Shown here: piece after piece, positions 35,933 to 39,982 of the stretch | How the letters are laid out: each line of letters begins with the position of its first letter | Numbering within the stretch: the first letter of the stretch is position 1 | Source: an uncultured Candidatus Thioglobus sp. | GTDB lineage: Bacteria; Pseudomonadota; Gammaproteobacteria; PS1; Pseudothioglobaceae | Length of the DNA stretch: 49,747 bases | Direction of reading: 5' to 3' | NCBI GenBank assembly: GCA_905614365.1 | Contig: CAJQSO010000019.1 | Span: forward strand, 86,259-136,005 | Notes under the pieces: model-generated | Database searches by the model: none | The model's input: only the letters and a program-made list of their open reading frames with translations | Told to the model about the DNA's origin: nothing | Position numbers and translations under genes: made by a program

Positions 35933-38262
35933 GTTTCATCTGGATCAATAGGCTCTGGTGCTAAAACATCTCTATTGCCTGCACTATTCATAGAGCTAAC
36001 GATTCCGCTGGCCTCCATATCTTCGATAATTCTGGCAGCGCGGTTATAGCCAATTCGCATTCTTCTTTGCAGACTGGAGATTGATGCTCTTCTTGTTGAG
36101 GTGACAATTTGCACTGCTTCATCAAAAAGTGGATCTAATTCACCAGAGGATTGTCCAGAGTCTTTGTTGGTGACAACCTCAGTTTGTGCTTTAAGAACTC
36201 CCTCTAAGTAGTTAGGGCTTGAGTTTTTCTTAAGATGCTTAACGACTCGCAGAATTTCGCTGTCCTCAACAAATGCTCCATGAACCCTAGTAAGGTGAGT
36301 CATGCCTGGCGCCATATAAAGCATATCACCCATTCCAAGAAGCTGTTCAGCTCCTGACTGATCCAAGATAGTTCTTGAGTCAGTTTTTGATGAAACTTTA
36401 AAAGACATTCTTGTTGGTATATTGGATTTAATTAGGCCGGTGATAACGTCAACACTAGGGCGCTGCGTTGCAACAATAAGATGTATTCCAGCTGCTCGAG
36501 CTTTTTGAGCAATTCGAACAATAAGACCCTCAACTCGCTTAGACTTAGCACGATCTTCCTGTGCAAGAGCGCCAAGCATATCCGCATATTCGTCTATCAC
36601 TATAACGATAAGTGGAAGCGCTTCTAGTTCTGGATGTTGCTCACCTTCTTTTGCGTTATCTGGATTAAATGAAGGGTCTAATAAAGGTTTTCCAGACTCT
36701 TTAGCTCGGTGCTGCTTTTCATTAAATGATTCGATATTTCTAACACTAAACTTAGCTAAAAGGCTGTAGCGCCTCTCCATCTCATTGACACACCACCAAA
36801 GTGCACTTGCAGCCTCATTCATATTAGTAACAACTGGAGTAAGGAGGTGTGGAATATCTGCATAGGATGCAAGCTCAACAATTTTTGGATCAATCATTAT
36901 GAATCTAACTTGCTCTGGTGAAGCTTTATATAAGATGCTGAGAATAATTGCATTAAGACCAACGGATTTACCCATTCCCGTAGCGCCCGCAACTAAAAGA
37001 TGCGGCATTTTTGCAAGATCCACAACAATTGGTAATCCATTGATGTCTTTACCAAGACCCATAGAAAGAGTCGACTTAGCTTTTGTGAATACTTCGCTTG
37101 AGAGGATTTCTTTAAGTCCAATCATCTCCCTGTTATTATTTGGAATTTCAAGACCAATAACTGGCTTTCCTGGAATCACATCAACTATGCGAACACTTTC
37201 AACAAGCAATGCCCTAGCTAGGTCTTTGTTAAGGTTCATGATCTGGCTAACTTTAATTCCTGGAGCAAGCGAAATCTCAAATTGAGTCACTACTGGCCCT
37301 GGAGTTACGGCAGTTATTGTTACGTCAAAGCCAAAATCTTTTAATTTAATTTCAACTTGTTGGCCCATTTCAACAAGGAACTCATCTGTGTATCCTAAGC
37401 CAGAATTACTCACGTCATCTAAAAGCGAAAGACTTGGAAGTCCACCTGACATTCCTGATTTGTATAGATTACTTCCCTGTTCTTTTTTAGGCTTCTCAGT
37501 TTTTTCAGCTTTCTCAGTTTTCGCAGTTTTTTCCACTTTTTTAGGCTTATCAGTTTTTTCCACTTTTTGAGTTTTCTCAGTAGCAGAATTAGAGCTGATA
37601 ATTTCAGGCCTAGTTTTTAAACTACTTGAATTTACAGCAGTGCTTTTTTCCCGATTAAAGACTTTTCTAAAAAGGGACGTGCTTATGTTTCTCCATGACG
37701 CGCTAGAGGCGATACTAAAACTAACAAAAATAATGCCGAAATATATTATTGTAGATGAGCTTCCAAAAATTTCATAAAAGACCAAATCATGCATTGACAT
37801 TCCAATCCATCCTCCTGCTAAAAATGTAGCTTTAAGGCCTTCAATAACTTTTATCTCTGGTGCGAATTGATGTGCAAGTGCCGCTGTAAAGAAAAGCATG
37901 ATGAGAAAAGCAATCAAACGAAGTAAGAAGGTAATCTGACTGCTGCGCTCTTTATTTGCATCTCTATGAAAGTTATATCCAAGCCATATTAGAGCTATAG
38001 GAATTATGTAAGAGACATAACCAAGAACTCCAATACTTATATCACTCAGATAAGCGCCAAACATTCCTGCGCTATTTATAACTGGCTTAATTAGTTGCGC
38101 TCCACCAGTCCATGGGTCTTCCTCTGGTACATATGTCACAAGTGCAATGAGGAAAACGACACCGAGTGTCAAGAGTAATATAAAAATCGACTCACTCGCA
38201 ATCTTTGAGCGCGGATTATTTATGGGGGTATTAAGAGTTGTGCGTTTATTATTTTTTTTCAA
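35929..38262 (-). CDS. ftsK: FtsK DNA translocase
   Basis: This 777-residue protein coordinates chromosome dimer resolution with septation. Four or so N-terminal membrane helices lie in residues 25-190, then a short Lys/Glu/Thr-rich linker (about 228-264), the motor domain with Walker A GATGMGKSVG (426-435) and Walker B LIVIVIDEYADML, and a C-terminal gamma winged-helix domain (SISSLQRRMRIGYNRAARII) that reads polar DNA motifs and activates XerCD. The linker is much shorter than E. coli's several-hundred-residue one and consists of imperfect EKT(x)K/KPKK repeats. It is divergent from trxB, with 47 bp between starts, as in related genomes. Confidence 0.97.
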   Translation of the reverse strand: MKKNNKRTTLNTPINNPRSKIASESIFILLLTLGVVFLIALVTYVPEEDPWTGGAQLIKPVINSAGMFGAYLSDISIGVLGYVSYIIPIALIWLGYNFHRDANKERSSQITFLLRLIAFLIMLFFTAALAHQFAPEIKVIEGLKATFLAGGWIGMSMHDLVFYEIFGSSSTIIYFGIIFVSFSIASSASWRNISTSLFRKVFNREKSTAVNSSSLKTRPEIISSNSATEKTQKVEKTDKPKKVEKTAKTEKAEKTEKPKKEQGSNLYKSGMSGGLPSLSLLDDVSNSGLGYTDEFLVEMGQQVEIKLKDFGFDVTITAVTPGPVVTQFEISLAPGIKVSQIMNLNKDLARALLVESVRIVDVIPGKPVIGLEIPNNNREMIGLKEILSSEVFTKAKSTLSMGLGKDINGLPIVVDLAKMPHLLVAGATGMGKSVGLNAIILSILYKASPEQVRFIMIDPKIVELASYADIPHLLTPVVTNMNEAASALWWCVNEMERRYSLLAKFSVRNIESFNEKQHRAKESGKPLLDPSFNPDNAKEGEQHPELEALPLIVIVIDEYADMLGALAQEDRAKSKRVEGLIVRIAQKARAAGIHLIVATQRPSVDVITGLIKSNIPTRMSFKVSSKTDSRTILDQSGAEQLLGMGDMLYMAPGMTHLTRVHGAFVEDSEILRVVKHLKKNSSPNYLEGVLKAQTEVVTNKDSGQSSGELDPLFDEAVQIVTSTRRASISSLQRRMRIGYNRAARIIEDMEASGIVSSMNSAGNRDVLAPEPIDPDET

Positions 38263-39408: not shown

Positions 39409-39444
39409 AAAGCCGAATTAGACTTTTGTTTAATTCGGCTTTTT
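39409..39444 (+). terminator. Terminator after tRNA-Phe
   Basis: A perfect 12-bp inverted repeat, AAAGCCGAATTA with TAATTCGGCTTT, closes a 10-nt loop and ends in a short T run to 39444. It lies 6 bp after the tRNA and 8 bp before the converging membrane protein gene. Confidence 0.85.
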
Positions 39445-39452
39445 ATTACTTA

Positions 39453-39821
39453 TTAGCCAGTAGCGCGAGTTTTCCAAAAGAATAAAGCGGCTAAAAGTAG
39501 GGCTGGAATCATTCCCATTGGGTCAAAATTTGCAGCTCCTGTTGAGATATGAAAAACTTGAACTGCAGCTAGTGCAAGATTAACATAGACACCAAAAATC
39601 ATACCAACTTTATTAATGTTATCTCCTACCCAAGATGGCGCCATCCAAGCGAATAATCCTAAGGCAAGTAATGGAATCGCTAGTACTTGTCCAAAAGACA
39701 CCATGTTTGCAGTTAAAGTCCATCCTGGACCTTGAGCAGCCATTTGAGGTGCTACCCAAAACATTACCGCATAGAGCCATATAAATATTGCTTGTGCTTT
39801 AAATAAATTTCCTAAAGTCAT
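39453..39821 (-). CDS. Small polytopic membrane protein of unknown function
   Basis: This 122-residue, Ala/Gly/Met-rich protein has four hydrophobic helices (about 8-25, 40-60, 70-92 and 100-118). The helices are joined by short loops such as APQMAAQGPGWTL and APSWVGDNINKVG. There are no cysteines or obvious catalytic residues. I do not assign it to a characterised family. It is a single minus-strand gene between tRNA-Phe and the ygfB operon, and its upstream region contains the 45-bp tandem repeat described below, so that structure may control it. Confidence 0.7.
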   Translation of the reverse strand: MTLGNLFKAQAIFIWLYAVMFWVAPQMAAQGPGWTLTANMVSFGQVLAIPLLALGLFAWMAPSWVGDNINKVGMIFGVYVNLALAAVQVFHISTGAANFDPMGMIPALLLAALFFWKTRATG

Positions 39822-39855: not shown

Positions 39856-39945
39856 TGAGCTCTTATTTCTAATAGAGCTAGAAATAATTATAGTCCTTAA
39901 TGAGCTCTTATTTCTAATAGAGCTAGAAATATTTATAGGCCTTAA
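39856..39945. repeat. Two tandem copies of a 45-bp structured repeat
   Basis: Copies at 39856-39900 and 39901-39945 differ at two positions only. Each begins TGAGCTCTTATTTCTAATAG and contains two overlapping inverted repeats, AGCTCT/AGAGCT and ATTTCTA/TAGAAAT, which cannot both form at once. They lie between ygfB and the small membrane protein gene. No third copy is seen in the window. Confidence 0.9.
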
Positions 39946-39982
39946 TAGGAATAATTCTTATTAAACTGATTGATTAGTTTAA
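39945..39982. repeat. Two palindromes flanking the tandem repeat
   Basis: A near-perfect 19-bp palindrome (AATAGGAATAATTCTTATT) at about 39945-39963 overlaps the end of the second repeat copy by a base. It is followed by TTAAACT/AGTTTAA around an 8-nt loop at 39961-39982. Read on the minus strand they lie 26 bp after the ygfB stop and may end that operon, though neither has a strong T run. Confidence 0.6.

Follow-up and report, generated by a model that had tools for sequence, protein, structure and literature searches.

A tandem repeat that probably duplicates the promoter and leader hairpin of a small membrane-protein gene in a marine Candidatus Thioglobus genome

In Escherichia coli, leaders of the ompA/papA type carry a 5'-terminal stem-loop that stabilizes the mRNA. 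The locus described here lies in a 49,747-nucleotide stretch of DNA (the window) from the 75% complete genome (G000) of a marine SUP05/Pseudothioglobus-group bacterium. It resembles the ompA/papA leaders in that a predicted stem-loop starts at the predicted mRNA 5' end, or no more than about two bases from it, and precedes a membrane-protein gene in an organism that bears RNase E. In contrast to those leaders, its start is a predicted one, the sequence of the stem varies between species, and the copy in the window is a modest 6-bp stem that has been duplicated. The arrangement also resembles tandem promoters that arise by local duplication, with two -10 box/start regions head to tail before one gene; here, however, the promoters are predicted and have poor -35 elements. 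Small dispersed intergenic repeats, such as those of the REP, ERIC, and MITE kinds, provide a third comparison. The locus shares short intergenic inverted repeats with these elements, but is found at one locus in the genome and as one orthologous unit in the genus.

The 45-bp repeat, its promoter-like elements, and its age

The repeat spans positions 39856-39945 and is composed of two 45-bp copies that mismatch at 2 of 45 positions in the copy alignment (Table 1). Tandem Repeats Finder reports it at 39856-39946 with a period of 45, 2.0 copies, and a score of 168, the highest in the window, in agreement with the initial annotation, which had described a 45-bp tandem pair with two differences. 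This repeat is far above chance: using +2/-5 scoring, the period-45 score of the window is 78, whereas 20 dinucleotide shuffles of the full window reach 36 at most. It sits between a UPF0149 (YgfB-like) gene and the gene for a 122-amino-acid membrane protein, and since both flanking genes are on the minus strand, the repeat falls on the upstream side of the membrane-protein gene. Elsewhere in the window, 27-bp tandem repeats at 37482-37581 lie within an FtsK-like gene and encode a linker rich in lysine, glutamate, and threonine.

The initial annotation knew of no feature type that would explain the repeat, and an answer is supplied by -10 boxes on the minus strand, the sense strand of the membrane-protein gene. 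Read on this strand, each unit contains a -10 box, seven bases, and then AGCTCT...AGAGCT, such that the hairpin begins 8 nt after the box; each unit also holds a predicted start point. Based on this layout, the unit is likely a core promoter with a 5'-terminal leader hairpin that was duplicated in this lineage, which accounts for an otherwise odd repeat. The duplication presumably yields two tandem promoters, here predicted and named P1 (distal) and P2 (proximal). At the level of sequence elements, promoter-like elements that are single in relatives are found head to tail in the window, as in a tandemly duplicated promoter. The -35 matches are poor (at most 4/6 for P2 and 3/6 for P1), and a promoter scan returned sites no more numerous than those in shuffles. 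Just upstream of P1, there is a near-palindrome, AATAAGAATTATTCCTATT, which loosely resembles a Fur-type box. A search of the genome for this pattern as a possible operator gave 16 matches per strand (up to 3 mismatches), compared to 12 for the reversed pattern; it is not clearly enriched, and a genome-wide operator was rejected. As a consequence of the duplication, the proximal promoter is shifted 45 bp away from this near-palindrome.

Table 1 Positions of the features discussed, in window coordinates
Feature	Position	Strand	Remarks
Proximal (downstream) 45-bp unit	39856..39900	-	Tandem Repeats Finder, copy alignment
Distal (upstream) 45-bp unit	39901..39945	-	Tandem Repeats Finder, copy alignment
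P2 (proximal promoter, predicted) -10 box TATAAT	39887..39892	-	Predicted start near 39880; box position kept in relatives
P1 (distal promoter, predicted) -10 box TATAAA	39932..39937	-	Predicted start near 39925; TATAAT in the G024 counterpart
Near-palindrome AATAAGAATTATTCCTATT	39944..39962	-	Just upstream of P1; outside the duplication; similar in G024, G006, and G002
Proximal leader hairpin AGCTCT/AGAGCT	39858..39879	-	Stem also in G024; other stems at the equivalent place in relatives
Distal leader hairpin AGCTCT/AGAGCT	39903..39924	-	22 bases identical to those of the proximal unit; fold computed
Second overlapping stem TTATTTCTA/TAGAAATAA, proximal unit, 9 bp	39863..39887	-	-5.7 kcal/mol; not kept in G024
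Second overlapping stem, distal unit, 8 bp	39909..39931	-	Sequence, copy alignment
122-amino-acid membrane protein served by the leader	39453..39821	-	Four long helices, AlphaFold2 (mean pLDDT 95)

A search of the genome and its relatives for copy-number variation, as the initial annotation had proposed, found two copies of the unit here, a single one in the closest relative (G024), and none in the rest of the 75% complete source genome. Among the 28 other genomes of the genus, G024 is the only one with a clearly related stretch, present once and at the orthologous place; its membrane protein is 97% identical to that of the window. When the intergenic region was used as a query, bases 1-47 and 80-186 both matched G024 and overlapped by 13 G024 bases, which corresponds to one unit. 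A count by eye puts the difference between the G024 unit and either window copy at 3 of 45 positions; the G024 unit has GGCC as in the distal copy and TATAAT as in the proximal copy. This sharing pattern implies one private change in each window copy, and thus the duplication is most simply dated after the split from G024. No comparable tandem repeat was detected in the other 41 leaders of the membrane-protein family (best score 20), and the two-copy state is found in one of 29 genus genomes, this one. Across the genomes compared, the repeat is therefore a recent, one-off, lineage-private 45-bp duplication, ordinary in itself, and not a repeat family. The earlier suggestion of a species-specific small repeat holds in that two copies are present in this genome only, but fails in that they occupy one locus and are not dispersed. 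Absence from close relatives and from the rest of the genome, together with the lack of a transcript, had been regarded as a sign of chance duplication: the duplication is indeed private, but the region that was duplicated has a layout kept by relatives.

The leader hairpin in relatives

Both of the overlapping stems described in the initial annotation are present in each copy, with computed RNA stabilities of -6.1 kcal/mol for the AGCTCT/AGAGCT stem and -5.7 kcal/mol for the second stem (ATTTCTA/TAGAAAT in the initial annotation). The whole repeat and the single unit fold no better than their own shuffles (z of -0.5 to -1.0), and consequently the hairpins alone are not beyond chance; the leader hairpin of the window is itself weak (z -0.32). 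The credibility of the first stem instead comes from the comparison with relatives. In all 20 homologues examined (at least 49% identity), 15 of which adjoin ygfB, a TATAAT-like box, picked by eye, is found 56-77 nt before the ATG, and the hairpin of the MFE fold starts 5-12 nt past this box, where the start site is predicted. Each leader was folded against its own dinucleotide shuffles, and the mean z is -1.79 for 18 leaders, which comprise 17 orthologues and the paralogue L026 following removal of the near-duplicates L005, L010, and L023. For the 17 orthologues, which are related to each other and are not independent, folding lengths of 28, 34, 40, 44, and 50 nt gave mean z values of -0.98, -2.05, -1.88, -1.67, and -1.36, respectively, and z is above -0.4 in three of these leaders. 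When a 40-nt segment was slid along the leaders, the signal was confined to starts from about -5 to +5 relative to the end of the box. As controls, 74 other TATAAT sites have a mean z of 0.03, and 13 further promoter-like sites in intergenic DNA of the window have a mean z of -0.37 (Mann-Whitney p 0.012).

The leader segments share a mean pairwise identity of 50%, and 28 of the 196 stem pairs counted in the 20 leaders are G-U pairs; these two properties are a better fit to RNA than to a DNA operator. A test for compensatory changes, also suggested in the initial annotation, gave no such result: RNAalifold, applied to a MAFFT alignment of the leaders, found no consensus pair, and hence no formal covariation support. 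In the wider family, 47 of 49 matches were fetched, and as 5 of these 47 loci had no usable start, 42 leaders were obtained. The 22 paralogue leaders, for which an automatic box finder was used, are mixed. Some contain strong hairpins (z -3.66 for L026 and -3.71 for L063, the paralogue in this genome), and many are short leaders without one. In Rfam, only tRNA reaches its gathering score, and the S15 leader, with an E value of 2, is below the cut-off; a known Rfam riboswitch or leader was accordingly rejected as a candidate. The idea of a structured leader, one of several offered by the initial annotation, is supported, as the unit is a likely promoter/5' leader and a hairpin recurs at that spot in relatives. 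As judged from these comparisons, a -10 box followed by a predicted hairpin of changing sequence has kept its position in relatives, and this positional leader hairpin, whose place but not sequence is fixed throughout a marine group that is mostly uncultured, is a more lasting observation than the repeat.

Proposed role and competing explanations

The locus is probably best explained by a tandem duplication, private to this lineage, in which the core promoter of the gene at 39453-39821 was copied along with its 5' leader hairpin. Each unit would contribute a -10 box, a predicted start, and a stem-loop that begins at about the first transcribed base. Both copies would act as promoters, P2 with TATAAT and P1 with the weaker TATAAA, and would give rise to two mRNAs that bear one or two leader hairpins. 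With 0-2 unpaired bases left at the 5' end, the hairpin would be expected to slow 5'-end-dependent decay by RppH and RNase E. Both of these enzymes depend on single-stranded 5' ends, which accounts for the stabilizing effect of 5' structures, at least as outlined in the review PMC3997798. The RNase E gene is present in this genome. For RppH, 22 of the 29 genus genomes have a match above cut-off; this 75% complete genome and G024 have none. We infer promoter activity and any benefit of its doubling; the hairpin would most likely protect the mRNA 5' end, a putative stabilizing role of the ompA type. If it does protect the mRNA, single-copy and double-copy genomes would provide a natural pair for tests of promoter doubling.

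A neutral duplication is quite possible, at somewhat short of an even chance. In this case, slippage or illegitimate recombination would have copied 45 bp of promoter and leader, with expression unaffected and one promoter in use. The occurrence of the two-copy state in one of 29 genomes and the divergence that has already taken place between the copies, with a distal TATAAA box relative to TATAAT in G024, are both consistent with such an event. However, the duplication took in the promoter/start region, in which an additional copy would be expected to matter, and the TATAAT box and the stem are retained in the proximal copy. Since a neutral duplication with one used promoter is compatible with the promoter/leader identity of the unit, it is a live rival. 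A broader reading, which we consider unlikely, is that the leader hairpin serves the four-helix family as a regulatory element throughout the genus, free in sequence and fixed in position. It would perhaps be recognized by a structure-specific factor or sense a condition such as temperature, and in this genome it would be doubled, with P1 mRNAs carrying two hairpins able to pair with each other and expression tuned by the choice of promoter.

The remaining explanations assign other roles to the inverted repeats. That each unit is a palindromic operator, and the pair a protein-binding array for a DNA-binding regulator, is very improbable: inverted repeats are located at the predicted transcription start and the additional near-palindrome lies just upstream, but the arms vary by species while pairing persists, G-U pairs included, and the unit is found nowhere else in the genome. 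A switch in which one or the other of the overlapping stems forms in the RNA and so regulates the gene, as implied by the mutually exclusive hairpins of the initial annotation, is very improbable. The folds differ little in stability and each copy holds both stems, but two of the nine base pairs that make up the second stem cannot form in G024 (TTAATTCTA, TAAAAATAA); this stem was either gained in the window lineage or lost in G024. Moreover, the second stem could form from P1 transcripts only. Most of its 5' arm precedes the predicted P2 start and would be missing from P2 transcripts. P1 transcripts would contain the proximal second stem whole, and their best fold pairs the two copies together. 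The breaks in G024 and the position of the predicted P2 start rule against a conserved two-stem switch. The region downstream of the hairpin, which includes the SD, also folds unremarkably (windows +10 to +35), and with no excess folding there, an SD-sequestering hairpin was likewise rejected. Finally, it is hardly credible that the unit is a mobile element of this species or one of its dispersed small repeats. The inverted repeats and tandem layout are like those of small intergenic repeats, but no other copy is present in this genome and the 28 other genus genomes together contain only the one orthologous unit, that of G024; many copies were not found, which refutes this explanation save for the missing quarter of the genome.

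The membrane-protein family

The product of the downstream gene belongs to a membrane-protein family that is covered by no Pfam or NCBIfam model. Sequence searches of Pfam, NCBIfam, and the PDB with this protein gave weak matches only, none over a curated cut-off, and a Foldseek search of the PDB with its model gave no match at E <= 0.001. The best VIA-align Z of 8.5 is within the stated range of common helical bundles. Of 58 genomes searched, this one among them, 25 contain homologues, which fall in 2 of 30 genera, and a class-wide draw of 369 genomes contained a homologue in the source genome alone; in these searches, the family is nearly restricted to one genus. Nothing on the leader hairpin or the membrane protein appeared among the papers that literature searches listed. 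Several paralogues are present per genome, and the family proteins end in a common LFFWKSR-like motif. This genome has a second locus of the family (G000:C2:4727-5074), and adjacent paralogue pairs occur in three relatives (G003:C17:11779-12639, G007:C115:1961-2781, and G025:C15:20481-21341). In the window, a strong terminator-like stem-loop is located at 39409-39442, between tRNA-Phe and the membrane-protein gene.
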